Shown here piece after piece: positions 1-60,713 of a stretch of 64,000 bases of DNA (positions are counted from its first letter, which is position 1; the number at the start of each line of letters is the position of its first letter). Under the pieces are notes generated by a model. That model saw nothing but the letters and a program-made list of their open reading frames with translations. It was not told the origin of the DNA and did not search any database. The translations under genes and the position numbers were made by a program. The stretch comes from Epinephelus fuscoguttatus. Its lineage: Eukaryota > Chordata > Actinopteri > Perciformes > Serranidae. The stretch covers positions 27,600,339 through 27,664,338 of the forward strand of contig NC_064757.1 in assembly GCF_011397635.1 (NCBI RefSeq). The letters are read 5' to 3'.

Positions 1-826
1 CATATTTTGTAAAGTAAAAATAGTGATGCGCTACTGATTCACCTCACACATTAAAAAGAAGGTTATTAAAGGAGAAGTCCGGTATTTTGCACTTTGAGCC
101 CCATCTCTGGGTTGGTTATGATGAAATAGAGTGGTTGAGACCAAAATTTTGACGAGCGCTCCTTTTTGGAGAATTTGGCTTTCCCTGGCTTAACAATACA
201 GTCTATGGCCATGTGTAAATCTGTCTTAAAACCACTCTAAACGTTTGTTTTCAAAGCCATGAAACTCCAAAGCCAAATTCTCCGAATTCTCTGGATGTTA
301 CCCGCTGCTGCTACTTAGCTTGTGCTAACACTGTGGAGACAGTCCCTCAGCACAGTGTCTAATCTGTGTCGGGCGGTTGGAGATCAGACCCTTGGTGCAA
401 TCCTGTTTTCCTCTGGAACTGTGAAAGACGTCCACACCGTGACATGTTTTGCCATCTAGACAGCATGTTGAAGTTGTTACTGTTCTTCTTCTGTGTGTTT
501 ATTGGCAGCTCGCAAACCAAGTTTAGAGATACATGTACTCCCACCCACTGTGTCGGGTGAGTTGATGCCGCCATTGTTAAGTCAATGAAAGCAGTCTGGC
601 TTCGTATTATCGGTGCTGTTTATCGGCTTTAATTTTAATTATCGGAAAACTGCAAATTTATAAAAATGTCCCATTATCGGCTGATAATTTATCGGGCTGA
701 TATATCGTGCATCCCTAGTATTTATGTTTCTTGATTGTTGCAAGACCTGTTTGATATAATTTTCTCTTACTATGTTAATGTTATGCACGAAAACATGTAA
801 GCTAATAACAAAAGCTCAATCCCTGC
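1..826. repeat. Repeat-rich left flank, no gene
   Basis: No coding exon is visible. A TTAA at 66-69 followed by AGGAGAAGTCCGG looks like one end of a TTAA-type fish DNA element; its other end was not found. Bases about 590-720 are rich in TATCGG words and end in TCGTGCATCCCTAGTA, which resembles the terminus of a widespread fish hAT-like repeat. The open frames at 359-574 lie inside this repeat and match no family I recognise. Confidence 0.45.
818..826. repeat. Target-site duplication, left copy
   Basis: AATCCCTGC directly abuts the left arm of the foldback element and is repeated exactly at 1275-1283. Confidence 0.8.
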
Positions 827-1274
827 TAGCCTTGGACCAAGACGTTCATTGCATGAACGTCTTGAAAATGTTCATTGCATGAATGTCTTGAAAACAAACC
901 CTGTTTTTCGTGTGGAGGTTCCCGGTCTAGACCGATTAACGTCTCCATAAACTTTCAAATCAAATATGTAATGTAATCACCTCATAGGCACAGATGTTAG
1001 GAAGGTGTACGGGGGTTGCTGTGTGTTTGCATTGCAGGACAAAGAAGGGGTGAAGAAAATTTCAGACATCCGAGATAAAAATGCATGTTTATTGAACAAC
1101 AACGGATATACAAACACACGGCAACCCCCGTACACCTTCCTAACATCTGTGCCTATGAGGTGAGTACATTACGTTTGATTTGAAAGTTTATGGAGACATG
1201 AATCGGTCTAGACCGGGAACCCCCACACGAAAAACAGGGTTCGTTCATGTAATGAACGTCTTGGTCCAAGGCTA
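827..1274. mobile_element. Foldback element with ~190-bp inverted arms and 9-bp target duplication
   Basis: The left arm (827 to about 1032) and right arm (about 1093-1274) are inverted copies of each other, with only a few mismatches plus one extra stretch of about 35 bp in the left arm. The interior is only about 60 bp. The element starts TAGCCTTGGACCAAGACG and ends with the complement. It is bounded by a perfect direct repeat AATCCCTGC at 818-826 and 1275-1283. Long terminal inverted repeats with a 9-bp duplication are typical of Mutator-like (MULE, including NOF/foldback) transposons, so I infer a non-autonomous MULE-type element. It encodes no transposase. Confidence 0.8.
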
Positions 1275-1283
1275 AATCCCTGC
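1275..1283. repeat. Target-site duplication, right copy
   Basis: AATCCCTGC directly abuts the right arm and matches 818-826 exactly. Confidence 0.8.
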
Positions 1284-3620
1284 CAGACTGTAACCGATTG
1301 GTTCTGAGATTGCATTTTGGCTAATGCATTTGCTCTCCACGTAGACTGTTTAAACTTGAGGGCCCTCGCTGTGTTCATTAGAGTTGGACGCAGACTTGCC
1401 AGGACATTTTGATCCATGAGCAAAACAAAAAAGTATTGTAGGTTCTATTTTTAAGGGAGAAAACGTTTAAGAGAGCTGATTGTAGGAAATGACACATATC
1501 AGACAAAGAAGCATAAATAGTCAGCTACACTGCTGAGCAAAAGTGGCCACAACATTATACCTGGTGACTCATTCTCAACATCATACGTATCTGAACACCT
1601 GGAAGAAACCGAATACACCGAGAAACCAACGTGCAACTTCTTACATGCTTGAACATGTTTTTGTAGGTAAGACTACATTATTTGACTAAGTTTGTAGTGG
1701 CAGCTTTGTAAGGTTGAACTCTGTGCATTGCTCATCTTTCCGGTCGATACTGTAGGCTACAGCAGAGAATGGGCAAAGCTACAGTCATCCCAGCTCCCTC
1801 TACAGTACATCTGTTTTTGTCCATATAGTAGGAGGAGGAGTGCTGACATTTGATATGCAAAGGCCTTCTAATCCCCGAAGTGCATCCCAGTGTATGCACA
1901 TATCAAAGTGCGTGTTTTTCTCTTTTTTCTCTGGCAGAATATGCCTACTATCACTTTTAATACCAAACTGACTCACTCCTCTGCCTGCAGAGAGCTTCAT
2001 GATAGAAGCTGAGGTATAAAGATTCCCTTTGTCACTCCAGCTTAGACTCATTCCAGAGCTAAGTCTGTCTGCGTGCACAAGACTTTTTCCCACTGTCAAC
2101 GTGACATTGCTAAGGAACAGCAGCTTTGTGTGGGTGATACTGAAAGCGGGCAGTGTTATAACAAGACAGTGACACTAAGAACATCGAGTGAACTTGCACT
2201 CTCTGCTCTTTGAACTCCACAGGGTTTTCTAATTAGCTCATCTACGTGTTCTGCTTACGGACATGTAGAAAGTTCCCATGAGGCCAATAAAGATGATCTG
2301 CTCACATTTGCTGACTCACAGAAGAGATCCTGACTTACCCTGAATTTTCGCTTACAGTAATCATTAAAGAGGCTGAATCCACATCGGCAAAGGGAATGCT
2401 TTCCCTCACGTAACCTCAGAGAAACGGTCACTTTTCCTTTCGCTCACTTGCAAAGAAGCAGCAGGCTGTTATTAATTTAGTTCATCGTATTGCATCCATC
2501 TGCTGGAGATGCTGCACTCCTTTTCAGATGTTAGGACCAGGGCTAAAAATGCCTAAAGGCCAGAAAAATTCACATCAACAACCAAATCTATTTCTGTCTG
2601 ACTGAAGCGTCCATTCCAGGGGCCATTACTGTCAAAACACGCACACTCAGACCGGGAGGTGTCGTCATGAATAATTCCTGCTCCTTCTTCTTGTAGGCTA
2701 CTTCCTGCTCTGCTTCTGTCTGTGTGGGTATGTTTATGCATGAGGTATTCATTATTGAACTATGAAGAGCACTGATATTCTGTGAACATCCAAAGGGATG
2801 ACTCAAACATCCATGTTTAACTTCCATCATTACATAAGCTTCGGAAGGTGAAGAGGTGTTCAACAGACAGCTGGATCAGATACACGTGTGGAGAACAGAG
2901 AGAGGAATCAGCTAATCAGTGGCAGAAGTTACAGTTTTAGCACAAGTGTGTCAGGACATGAGCTCTGACTTTTAGCAGGGAGAAGCTGTGCCAGATGTCT
3001 TTTACGCAGCTTTCATTGATTTCCCACTAAATTGGTCAGCGGTTGCTTGTTGCCATGGTTACAGTCAGTGAATGTGAAAGGATGTCTAAGAATGACTACT
3101 AGCCTCGAGAGCTCTGATGCAATTGCTGACATAGTACGACACAGCCTGTCATTTTATTAGGCTCTCCTTCTAGCTGCACATGTCACCGTTTGGCTGTCTT
3201 TTCCGTCTGTACTTCCGAGCCACCCAGCTGGCCTATCTGTCGATGATGCCCTTATTTGTATGCAAAGTAACGCGTGTGCGCCTGTTTGTGCGAGACAAGG
3301 TCAGCCCCGTCAAACAGTCTTTGCCATCCTCCATTTATCATTGAGGAGGAAAACTTAACAAAGACAGAGCCCTGAACCAGAGTGTAAACAACTTCACTGT
3401 AAACATGCCCTCTATCATGTATCCATCTCTCTCTGTGCCCATTTCCTGTTGATGTTTAAAGATGAAATACTTGCTTTGACTTGGGCCACTGCACAGATAC
3501 AAGTGTGGTTTAATCAAATTATCATCACACTGTACAGTACATGAACTAATGAACTGCTAATTGCAAATACAACCATACACAAGCCATTTGCAGGTCTGTT
3601 TAAATGCATTTAAAAGACAA
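1284..3620. other. Intergenic, no gene recognised
   Basis: Both strands show only short open frames without splice-consistent neighbours or known motifs. The one motif noted is an RFX X-box-like GTTGCCATGGTTAC at about 3049-3062. Nothing else is supported. Confidence 0.5.
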
Positions 3621-26800: not shown

Positions 26801-29309
26801 GAAACAATCCTGACAAGTTGTCATAACGTAGCAACAGCATTTTGTGATTCTTTTTTTAAAAGTTTGTATTTGTTTCTGATTACATGCAGGTCAACCCAAA
26901 TTAAAACCTACTCGTGGGATAATGCACAGGTGGTGCTGGCTGGCAATAAGTGTGATATGGAAGAGGAGAGAGTGGTCTCGGTGGACAGTGGCAGACTGCT
27001 GGCAGAACAGTTGGGTAAGTCTTGGAGCAACATTCAGCCCTTAATGCCTTCTGGGATGTTAACAAAAATACTGCTACGCCCTGTACAAAGGTGCCTGAAT
27101 ATTACTGCAGGCTCTGGAGGCCCTTCCCTCCTTTCACAGTACGCCATGGCAATATTAATTCAGGACTCCCTGTCAATGGACAGCGACAAATGGTACATGG
27201 AGTGCTCTCCCTAATCAGTAAGCAGAATATGAAACTCATCAATGTCAGACAGTACGTCAACAATAAGTCTAGACAAAGCTGGGTTATCAACCAAGTAGGC
27301 CTTTGTGCACAGTGGCATCACGAGGAGATCAGTCTTTTTGATTAAAGTATTTCGGAACACTGGGTTGTCTATGCAGTAGAAGGACACAGATACTTTTTCA
27401 AGGTGCTACATGACCAGGGAAAACAGAGATAAAGGGCTGTGGCAAGAGGTAGAGAACCTACAACTACCAGAATGCACTGCGCCACACAGGATCAAAAAAT
27501 GCTGGTGGGTGATGTAATGTGAGCATGTCCATTTTGACACAGGAAACAATATGGCACCTGGCTGGAGACAAACAGTGTTGTAGTACAGTTAAACAGTAAG
27601 CTAAAATATGTTTCTGTAAACATTTTAGGCAAGAAAAAGGCAACGCAGTTACAGAATTTTGGTACATTTTAGATCAACACTGCTTACTTTTCCATTTAAT
27701 CTCAGTTTTTTCAGCCTCTATTTTTACACCACATGAAATGGTGCCCACTTCCTGTTGACAAATTCTCATATTACAGCCAAATAGTGCACTAAAATGTGCT
27801 TATGATATTTTAGATGAGAAAAAGACAATACAGTAGCGTAATCTTGGTTTATATCAGCACTGCTGTTTTTCCATTTGATCTGAGTTTTTCCAGCCACTGT
27901 TTTTACAACACAGGACATGGCACCCACTTCCTGTTGACATATTGTCAGATTACAGCCAAATAGTGCACTAAAGTATGTTTCTGAAGGCATTTTTAAGTGA
28001 GAAAAAGGCAATACAGAAACATAATCTTGGTTAATATTTGATCAGTACTGCTTAGCTTGCCATTTGATTTGCCATTTGAGTTTGAGAGAGACAGAGATAG
28101 GAGCAGGTGTCTCTCTCTCGATCAACTACTGCACTGTTTGTGTCTGTGGTGGCAGCACAGACTGTATAAGTGGCAGGCATAAGAAAATGTGGAAGTACAG
28201 TCTGTAGTTCAAGCAATAATCCCAGAGCCAGCAAAAATCTGGCAGATTTGAGCTGAGAGATGAGCAGGGAGATCTGGGTGCTGGTAAGACAGAGGGAAGT
28301 TTATCAGAGTAAAAAATAGCAGCGTGCATGCTCCAAAATCTGAAATAATGTGTCGAGTGCTCGGTTGTGGATCCAAAACAAATAGAACACCAGTCCCGAC
28401 AGATAAGATTACTTATTTAATGTGGGAAAAACAAACAGAAAAGAGCCTGTCTCAGCTACAAAGCCATCATCTATGATGACAGGATGATGGCTATGTAGCT
28501 GATACGCCTTAATTTCGATTTGTTTCTTCCACATTAAATAAGTAAATTTAACACAGTTCATTTACACATACCACCCACATTGTTATGATACATTGCTGGT
28601 AAAGTATCCCTTTAAAAACCTGCAAACATCACAAGCAATGAACCAGTATAAAACTGGTATAAAACCAACTGTTGTCTTATTTCTCCTGGTCGTCTTTGCA
28701 TGATTGTGTCTTAAAAATCCACAGCCTGAAGAACGTCATCCTCACAGGACATTAGGTGGCTCAGTCTGCTTTGATTTGAGGAAGTGCGAAATGCTAATAT
28801 ACTTTAGTTTAGGGTTGAGACACTACAGTGCGCTAGTCATCAGCTATGCATGGGAAACCTCTGTGACTTCCCTGGCACAATATGGTTCATGGTGGTGGTT
28901 CAAATATATAATATTATAATTGTTGCTGATCTTTTAATAATTAAGCCAATGTCTTGTGAGGCGCCAAGAGGGCCCAGGACTTAGGCTTGCACATTAAGGC
29001 AACATTGACTACATAGAAGCAGCTTTGTTTTTAATAACTGTCAAAGCTTTTCCTATGGTATGGTTGTTGTCTTAGTCAGCTGTCTCTTCCTGTTCTCATG
29101 TTTCTCCCTCTTCCCAAGGTTTTGAATTCTTTGAGACCAGCGCCAAGGATAACATCAACGTGAAGCAGACCTTTGAACGTCTCGTCGACCTAATTTGCGA
29201 CAAGATGTCTGAGAGCTTGGACACAGATCCGGCCATCACTACGGGAGCCCCCACTGCCAAACTCACGGACAGCGCTCCGCCCCTCCAGCAGCCTGGATGC
29301 AACTGTTAG
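18591..29309 (+). CDS. rab3c: Rab3C synaptic-vesicle small GTPase, 5 coding exons
   Basis: Regulates Ca2+-triggered vesicle exocytosis by cycling between GTP- and GDP-bound states. Exons: 18591-18608, 20231-20455, 23868-23986, 26890-27014, 29119-29309; 678 nt, 225 aa (human RAB3C is 227). The P-loop GNSSVGKT is at 34-41, switch II DTAGQE at 82-87, the base-recognition NKCD at 140-143 and SAKD in the last exon. The C-terminal CNC (CxC) is the double geranylgeranylation site. The six-codon first exon (MDLYGK, phase 0, donor GTAAGA) mirrors the human gene, where a short first exon precedes a second in-frame Met; that Met is the first codon of the second exon here. An isoform starting at 20231 (219 aa) is possible. 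Rab3C rather than Rab3A, B or D is chosen from the tail sequence and the pde4d linkage. Confidence 0.92.
18780..19205 (+). promoter_or_regulatory. rab3c: CpG-rich block with full CRE and candidate alternative rab3c first exon
   Basis: The start of intron 1 is CpG-dense, holds a perfect TGACGTCA at 18933-18940 and a REST/RE1 left half-site GGTGCTGAA at 19051-19059, and ends in a possible donor AACAG|GTTTGT near 19,205. A noncoding first exon splicing to 20231 would give the shorter protein. The open frame at 18,809-19,138 is not considered real. Confidence 0.35.
20456..23867 (+). other. rab3c: rab3c intron 2
   Basis: 3.4 kb of mostly unique-looking sequence with no recognisable transposon and no extra exon. 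It ends in a TG repeat at the acceptor. Confidence 0.6.
23837..23865 (+). repeat. (TG)n microsatellite forming the splice acceptor tract
   Basis: About 14.5 uninterrupted TG units run directly into the AG (23866-23867) of the acceptor for the rab3c exon at 23868. No conventional pyrimidine tract lies between them. Confidence 0.9.
23987..26889 (+). other. rab3c: rab3c intron 3
   Basis: 2.9 kb without a coding exon. It contains a perfect RFX X-box palindrome (25,513-25,528) and simple T- and CT-rich runs near 25,390 and 25,940. Confidence 0.55.
25513..25528. promoter_or_regulatory. RFX X-box palindrome
   Basis: GGTTGCCATGGCAACC is a perfect 16-bp palindrome matching the RFX consensus GTTGCC-N2-GGCAAC, located within a rab3c intron. 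Confidence 0.5.
27530..28078. repeat. Tandem repeat, about 180-188 bp unit, three copies
   Basis: The landmark CCAAATAGTGCACTAAA recurs at about 27,778 and 27,957, and a diverged copy (GCTAAAATATGTTTCTG) at about 27,600. The words GAGAAAAAGRCAATACAG and CCCACTTCCTGTTGACA recur at the same spacing. Confidence 0.75.
28411..28543. repeat. Long imperfect hairpin
   Basis: The outer arms ACTTATTTAATGTGG and CCACATTAAATAAGT are exact complements. The inner arms CAGCTACAAAGCCATCATC and GATGATGGCTATGTAGCTG pair with one mismatch. The loop is about 7 nt and the total span 133 bp. Confidence 0.75.
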
Positions 29310-36009: not shown

Positions 36010-39000
36010 CCATGCTTTTATTTAATCCATTGCATATAAAAACTTTTTTTTTCATTCTTTTTATTTGTTTTTTACATAAAGTTGTATGATCTACAGTGCT
36101 ATCCAATAGACTGCAATTAACAAGGAATCCATTAAAATAACATTTTAATTGTCCTGTGAAACTTCCAGACAAGTTGGCATTCTAAAGACATAACCCAAAA
36201 AATAATTGTCCTGAAGACCTTTTTTTAAGTTACAGTTTGTGTTTTCCTTTCATACCATAAAAAATAGAACACATAATGAGAAAAGAACCCACTGTTTCCA
36301 TTGGTCCAGGGCTGTTTAGAATCTACAGTATGTGTGTCAAAATAAGAGTCCCCGTTTCGGGACAATGATGCACTCACCCGATACCCCTGTCCCCGCCCAC
36401 CCCAACCCGCCCTTCACAACAGAAATATACTAAACCCTTCTCCTGTCCAGGCAGAAAGATGTCAGTGGTTTTGGATATTGCAAGTAATGTGAGTGGAAGT
36501 GTGGGCCGAGCATAGATAAGCAACACACCGTCAGTGTTTCAGCCATAATTAATGCAGCAGTGGCTGAACATGCAGATGTGTCTCAAAGCCTCTGTGCTTC
36601 GTAGGCTGTGGTTGAGCAGCAACCGCACGCTCCTGTTGTGCCCCATTCAGTGTTTGCAGCTGTGATACAACCACTTGGATGCAGACGACGCTGCAGTTAA
36701 GCAAAAGTACTCCATTATCGTTTACATCTGCTGGTTTTGTCACATCTTTGAGTGTAGTGGCGGGGCGTGAGGAAAGTGCAAGTTGTCCCGACCACGTCTA
36801 CAGCAAATACGACTCTTGGACATCCGGCTATAGGCCACACATCACTCAAGTAGTACATCTATGACTCGTGGTTGACCTGAATCCCTGCAAGCTTCTGCAC
36901 TGACCACATTATTTTCTACCCAGAGCCGCTTCTTTTTTTTTTCTTAATAGAGCAATTTGTGTTTGGCTGTGACAGTAAAAGGCAACATTTTTCAAATTCA
37001 CAACAGGAGATCAGGCCAACCCGAGCCAAAAGATTCACTAATGCAGCAAAAGAGAACTAGAAAATAAAACAAAAATCAAAAAGGCTAAAGGAAATGACAT
37101 GCGTTGAATTTAAGGCACAGCCCATGGGCCAAGGAACAGTTTCTTTTTAAAAAACAATTTGGCTTTCCCCCTCTCTTCACTGAGCTAGTTCTCAGATAAG
37201 CAACATGTCGATGGATCATTTTTACACTGAAGCTCATGTGTAATAAACATTCTCTCAACAAGAGGTACGTAATACAGCCACACCATCACCAAAAGGGATG
37301 ATAAGAATCAACCATTTACAACAAACGGCATTATGATAGTAATAACATTAATAATTATATATTATATACAGCACAATAAATATATGTTTGTAAACAGCGA
37401 TAAAACCAGAAATTTTTATTACAGGTAAGGGCATTGGGTGAGGATGAAAAATAGAGAGAGAGAGAGAGAAAAATGTTGGCACTAAATGAAAGATTAAATA
37501 AAGTGTTTTGAAATGACACATAATTAACACAAGCACTCGTTTTTTTAAAAAAAGCAATGTGCAGTATTTCAAGTGTGTTTTTTTTTTCATTTGTTGATTT
37601 TCTATATTTTATGTACACAGAGAGAGGAGAAAAAAAGTATATTTGGGTATTGTAACTGCCAAGCCTGTACTGTGGTCTATGCTACAGTTAAATATTTACT
37701 GTACCACCTTTATATTGCAAAAAACGACTCAACAAATAGAAAAATATACCAATAAATAATAGCATCAGGTGTAAAGTGAAAAATGATAGAAACATGGAAA
37801 AAAGGAAGAGAGAGTCTTGGCCGAGGTGTAAGACAGCACTGTTCAAGCCTAAGTATTCATGAGTGAGTGTTTTGGCGAGTTTAAACATAGTAAAAATGTT
37901 TTAGTGGTGATATATGAATATATCAGTGCATTAGAGTATCTACGAAGAGGATAGTCTCATCTGATGACTATGCAACGGAGCTGATTGTCTTGTCAAAAAC
38001 AAAGACAGCAACTGGGTTTGATGTTGTGAAGGAGAAAGCAAACATTATTTTCATGAAAAATAAATTCATAACGTTTTAAGGAGCAGTGTGTAGGATTTAG
38101 TGCCATCTAGTGGTGGGGATTGCAGATCGCAACCAGCTGAAACTTCTCCCGTGTGCCAAGCATGAACTCCCGGTTAGGATACCATCAAGATTCATTGTTC
38201 AGGAAGTTTTTACTGGGAGATGAATTATCCACAGAGGTCTCTTCCTCCTCAAAATGAAAGCTCCAGGTAATAAAAGCTGGTAAAAAAAACATAAACATTA
38301 CAAATCAGTGTTTCTTCTATGCTGCTGAGCTTGTCACTAGCTAGCACCTGCTAATATGCGCTCATATTTCTGCCGTGACAACATGAGCATGGTTAGAAGT
38401 GTTTATTGTTCAGGAGGATTTAAACAGTAGCCGAATTATCGGCAGAGGTCCACTCCTTGCAAAAACAAATGGACTTGGTGATTTACACTGAATAAAGCAG
38501 TTTCAATTTATAAATCAGTGTTTTTTCAATGCTATTTGGCTTGTTGCAGATGCTATATGTGATCACCTTTTTTCTCTGATAATCTAAGATGCAAATGTTC
38601 AGGAGGTTTTTACCAAGAGCCAAATTATCCACAGAGGCCCCCTCCTCTCCAAAATAAATGGATCTGGTGATTAAAATCTGTAAGAACACTGAATAAAGCA
38701 GTTTCAATTTATAAATCAGTGTTTTTTCCCCACACTGTTTGGCTTGAAGAAGGTGCTATGCGTGATCACCTTTTTTCCCTGATAATTTAAGATCCAAACG
38801 TTCAGGAGGTTTTTACTGAGAGCCGAATTGTCCGCAGAGGTCTCCTCTTCTCCAAAACAAATGGACTTGGTGATTTAAACTGGTAAAAACACTGAATAAA
38901 GCAGTTTCACATTAAAAAAAGTGTTTTTCTGCTGCTGTTCGGCCTGTCGCAGAGGTGCTGCTAACTACAGTGGCTGACGTGGAAATGCAAAAATGTAAAA

Positions 39001-40568: not shown

Positions 40569-60713
<20,145 letters not shown>

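Follow-up and report, generated by a model that had tools for sequence, protein, structure and literature searches.

A fish foldback transposon family with 9- or 10-bp target duplications, likely moved by a Mutator-like transposase

The window analysed here, a whole stretch of 64,000 nucleotides from Epinephelus fuscoguttatus (contig NC_064757.1), contains near its beginning a long palindrome enclosed by a short direct repeat, and this locus raises the question of what kind of mobile element it is and which transposase moved it. The earlier note on this DNA had described a foldback element with near-identical inverted arms and a perfect 9-bp duplication, and our analysis confirmed this description. 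The arms consist of three inverted blocks: 827-859/1242-1274 (33 nt, 97% complementary), 893-964/1174-1245 (72 nt, 94%) and 968-1032/1108-1172 (65 nt, 95%). The two copies of AATCCCTGC are exact and lie directly outside the TAGCC...GGCTA termini. The parts of the element are as follows.

818..826, no strand: target duplication AATCCCTGC, left copy, 9 bp
827..1274, no strand: non-autonomous foldback transposon, 448 bp, TAGCC...GGCTA
827..851, + strand: conserved 25-bp end TAGCCTTGGACCAAGACGTTCATTG, exact
827..1032, + strand: left arm, from the inverted blocks
839..864, no strand: 26-bp palindromic unit, first copy
865..890, no strand: second copy of the 26-bp palindromic unit (88% identity to 839..864)
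1033..1107, no strand: short middle separating the innermost arms, 75 nt
1108..1274, - strand: right arm, from the inverted blocks
1250..1274, - strand: 25-bp end TAGCCTTGGACCAAGACGTTCATTG, inverted, one mismatch
1275..1283, no strand: target duplication AATCCCTGC, right copy, 9 bp

The long inverted arms make up most of the element, as is characteristic of the foldback class. Folded as ssDNA the element gave -192 kcal/mol, compared with a mean of -51.5 (sd 4.6) for 100 shuffles, none of which was as low (z-score -30). A stretch of 122 nt (1038-1159) is open in one frame and is flanked by a splice-acceptor-like TTGCAG and a donor-like GTGAGT; the 40-residue peptide from the open frame in the arm was without a Pfam match. 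Elsewhere in the window there are two tandem arrays (27668-28037 and 38485-38928) of about two copies each, with units of 179 and 203 bp, and an open frame of 197 aa (55570-56163) that by eye looks like a Tc1-type transposase.

The search for further copies covered 1,046,998,120 bases in 26 contigs. The whole element gave at least 119 matching pieces; these come from the 40 candidates, out of 127, that were scored. When up to two mismatches were allowed the 25-bp end was matched 96 times (43 and 53 by strand), and an 18-nt end pattern was matched 105 times with up to one mismatch (50 and 55 by strand); the reversed control gave 0 in both cases. The common ends and the copy number are thus direct observations, a non-autonomous foldback family is real, and the many same-ended copies anticipated in the earlier note were found. 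The end sequence of the family is TAGCCTTGGACCAAGAC. One variant end is common to 18 of the 96 matches, all of them located no more than about 3 Mb from the end of a contig. In the four that were fetched (L083-L086) the surroundings are alike, with similarity continuing past the edge of the insertion over as much as 2.8 kb, and because of this likeness the 18 variant ends are not to be taken as independent transpositions; we read them as what appears to be a single insertion carried by a larger repeat. The arms show about 3% divergence from the majority sequence (18 of 28 arms used, 10 dropped for low coverage). Two arms differ by 5.6% within one element (4 pairs) and by 5.1% between elements (149 pairs), so there is no sign that both arms of a copy stay alike. 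These values fit a burst from similar source copies.

Target duplications were scored at 27 loci possessing both a left and a right end, with single-end loci excluded and the composite loci L013, L015, L017 and L021, described below, left out. Perfect duplications of 9 bp were observed at nine and of 10 bp at five of the 27 loci (14 in total). Duplications of 9 or 10 bp were present at 17 of the 27 when one mismatch was allowed, a length within the 8-11 bp, typically 9 bp, expected for Mutator-like elements (MULEs), and at 20 when two were allowed. No locus showed a duplication of 7, 8 or 11 bp, even with two mismatches. In the control, where left flanks were paired with right flanks of different loci, perfect matches of 9 or 10 bp occurred in 0 of 702 pairs, and one mismatch gave 2/702 at 9 bp and 0/702 at 10 bp. 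An earlier pass over 39 loci had yielded 10 duplications, with 0/3175 in the cross-locus control. The copies are flanked by different duplications, as had been foreseen. Seven of the 27 two-ended copies showed no duplication even with two mismatches. In four of these (L030, L039, L072 and L076) the left 'end' is flanked by the element's own middle sequence, and for this reason it is probably not a true outer end. Like flanks were seen in L070 and L073, and likewise in L061 and L063, each pair probably representing one insertion within a duplicated segment. The perfect duplications of L029 and L081 sit in simple repeats and are weak cases.

Related empty sites, which the earlier note had proposed to look for, were observed for three insertions. 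The joined flanks of L025 matched L021 over 93 nt (95.7%) and those of L062 matched L071 over 301 nt (90.4%), in both cases across the junction and with a single target; these are two of the 15 elements tested, the comparison being made against fetched loci only. The joined flanks of the window element matched at least 40 places in the genome, two of which were the window itself, and 21 of the 38 others span the junction at 72-80% identity. In the two alignments made, L089 and L090 both continue through the insertion point with the element lacking. The window element had thus jumped into an old dispersed repeat.

The subterminal anatomy was compared in 19 elements (38 ends), by measuring the distance from each end to a common AACCC landmark. 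At 23 of the 38 ends the landmark lies 43-44 nt from the terminus, and in most of these a single palindromic unit of some 26 bp is present. In the window copy the left end lies 69 nt and the right end 33 nt from the landmark. The additional ~35 bp of repeated palindrome that had been noticed in the left arm is thus real: it amounts to 36 nt (left minus right), made up of one more 26-bp unit on the left (839-864, 865-890) and a right side 11 nt below the usual 43-44 nt. It is peculiar to the window copy and not family-wide, since two full units were found in none of the other elements of the set. At the right end of L062 a fuzzy count gave two units, yet the letters are without a second one, and the left end of the same copy has a partial duplication of 12 nt. 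The unit is present in 0 to 2 copies per arm, and in this respect the variation of arm sub-repeats between copies, as in foldback elements, was upheld. L021 has three tandem repeats of the terminus together with middle sequence, at a spacing of 71 bp. AACCC was absent within 120 nt at seven of the 38 ends, where the terminus of roughly 25 bp is kept and is followed by an abrupt switch to middle-type sequence. Because these ends keep the terminus alone, it suggests itself as the essential part of the element. Fuller copies with duplications (L027, L029 and L043) are 548-570 bp long.

We consider it very likely that the family is a non-autonomous cut-and-paste transposon moved by a MULE-type transposase. 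The assignment is based on the length of the duplications, 9 or 10 bp, since PMC6446971 names 8-11 bp as a mark of MULEs. A transposase encoded at some other genomic site would recognise the element ends, presumably through the 25-bp end, and excise the element. On insertion, cuts staggered by 9 or 10 bp would then leave the flanking duplication. The enzyme would be a MULE, and faulty repair may have caused the loss or duplication of arms and middles.

With the Pfam model the MULE domain was detected seven times in the host genome, every match being above the Pfam cut-off. Mutator-type transposases are regarded as rare or even missing among vertebrates. One match falls within a 219-aa open frame (E 1.4e-13), and another locus has a FLYWCH finger (1.1e-6) ahead of a MULE frame (1.3e-8), with an element between them that is Tc1-like by eye. 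The 219-aa frame used as a query returned 17 exon-level rows with 38-69% identity besides itself and with stops in 6 of 17. Because of this low mutual identity and these stops, the MULE pieces look older than the foldback family, whose arms are about 3% from the majority. MULE transposases once existed in this genome, with no tie to the family ends: none of 14 MULE loci was closer than 200 kb to any of the 100 end positions compared (an incomplete set of the family's ends), no convincing TAGCC-like end was found beside the seven MULE loci, and a strict bracket (an inverted repeat with an 8-11-bp duplication) was found around none of them, nor in three shuffles of each. One candidate, L055, has inverted repeats of 494 nt (94%) around MULE exons, and it was rejected; the repeats start with TTAACGC and no 9-bp duplication was seen outside. 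Searches with the Pfam MULE model, the MULE protein query and the end and bracket scans found neither a coding member nor an autonomous partner of the family. Hence of the Mutator-like (MULE/NOF) mechanism put forward in the earlier note, the Mutator-like part is supported by the 9- or 10-bp duplications, whereas the link to NOF is by analogy only and none of the MULE loci found lies near a TAGCC end. Decayed frames and fragments of the FLYWCH/MULE type were seen in L054 (4437-5442), L055, L056 and L057, and these bear on MULEs in vertebrates. A second, different MULE-like protein type is present in L059 (4594-5568, open for 324 aa), L060 (4716-5078) and L058, whose translations match each other.

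The earlier note had also named as support a longer relative encoding a MULE transposase, and this was not borne out: the two long copies hold other sequences instead. L082 has a frame that by eye is reverse-transcriptase-like. The 3.3-kb TAGCC copy L081 contains an unrelated palindrome (573-3422) with 784-nt arms, 96% complementary, built of tandem units of about 178 bp around a middle of 11-bp repeats, and represents a second foldback-like element; this insert gave no match to the window. Besides these two, the long and half copies, which were read for frames mostly by eye, showed short frames only; L077 and L085 were among the loci read.

The principal alternative is a foldback element that belongs to a different cut-and-paste superfamily, be it Merlin, P (the superfamily of Galileo), hAT or one not yet described, and whose 9- or 10-bp duplications would be incidental. 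P elements leave duplications of 7-8 bp. Duplications are given as 5-8 bp for hAT and 8-9 bp for Merlin in PMC4482050, and the 9 bp seen here falls within the Merlin range. Galileo, which has long arms, is of the P type (PMC3688188), so foldback structure does arise in other superfamilies, and no transposase is tied to the present family. Against this explanation, 8 bp fits none of the 27 copies and 10 bp is perfect in five of them; as regards Merlin, 9 bp and 10 bp were seen and 8 bp was not. For hAT and P the count was 0/27 at 7 or 8 bp with up to two mismatches, these being the lengths within their ranges that were tabulated. We regard another superfamily as unlikely, and movement by a MULE as the better explanation.

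It was also considered that the family is merely a by-product of ISL2EU, the palindrome being part of ISL2EU elements and moved by their transposase. At ten fetched loci the foldback arms are nested in a larger palindrome ending AGGGAATGGGCACAG..., and the outer ends of these composites are flanked by AT in 14 of 15 cases (the exception, L024, has GT). A precedes the left end in 7 of 7 and T follows the right end in 6 of 8; two hits to the pattern at a single MULE locus (L049 = L056) were attributed to chance and excluded from the count. L013, L015, L026, L033 and L034 are examples of TAGCC arms within ISL2EU-type ends with AT flanks (in L015 at 686-1656). A genome search with the outer arm gave 36 matching rows. 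The flanks conform to A|AT|T, which is the ISL2EU target according to PMC4482050; PMC9179366 places ISL2EU in teleosts and reports its absence from gar, coelacanth and elephant shark. The presence of ISL2EU and the Tc1-like frame at 55570-56163 are both in keeping with a teleost host. An ISL2EU-like locus, L077 (DDE_Tnp_4, 1e-31; YqaJ, 0.0011, under the Pfam cut-off), itself bears old copies of the foldback ends. However, solo copies have TAGCC/GGCTA as their exact termini, lie between 9-10-bp duplications that are unrelated in sequence and have empty sites, and such scars are not made by ISL2EU. The by-product explanation is true of composites only and is refuted for solo copies, so that for the family it is very improbable. 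For the solo elements the outcomes that the earlier note had set against its own proposal, namely 8-bp or TA duplications or a lack of other copies, were not observed. It is probable that ISL2EU captured the foldback body and also multiplied it, in what would be that order of events. Palindromes can come from template switching or misassembly, but a chance palindrome, a local inverted duplication or an assembly artefact is virtually inconceivable and was refuted by the dispersed same-ended copies with different duplications; the fold z-score of -30 also speaks against it.

The kind of element is already known. FB/NOF elements of Drosophila have foldback arms and 9-bp duplications; the likeness to the present family lies in these two features, and no NOF-like gene was found. 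Tetris, a foldback of Drosophila virilis, has 8-10-bp duplications and was assigned to Mutator by that length (PMC4079207). By description it is also like the present family in the long arms with internal repeats, the lack of coding capacity and the lack of an autonomous partner found; the present arms are shorter and have a single palindromic unit of some 26 bp, whereas Tetris has 220-bp tandem repeats, and the host here is a vertebrate. The Tm1 Mutator/Foldback family of root-knot nematodes has 8-10-bp duplications, mostly 9 bp, in 45 of 53 elements (PMC3169594) and resembles our family in its composite arms of variable length, the range of its duplications and its non-autonomous, MITE-like members. 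It differs in having, in that account, members encoding a putative transposase, with none coding found here, and arms of many 13-15-bp tandem repeats. Sub-repeat number varies far more in Tm1 and Tetris than in the grouper family. Our composites obey the A|AT|T rule of ISL2EU (PHIS superfamily; PMC4482050 and PMC9179366), whereas the solo elements, including that of the window, do not.

Among open-access papers, judged by title or abstract opening, none was found on a fish foldback family with 9-10-bp duplications. The interest of the family is its vertebrate host and the MULE question there. We give an even chance to a scenario in which a MULE active fairly recently in a vertebrate, probably teleost, lineage amplified the family, the decayed MULE frames being relatives of the source, after which the body was captured and multiplied by ISL2EU, so that one body would have been moved by two superfamilies. 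The composites show foldback arms turning into part of another transposon's inverted repeat. A low-divergence family with clear 9-10-bp scars, together with MULE domains in the same genome, makes the question of MULEs in vertebrates testable.
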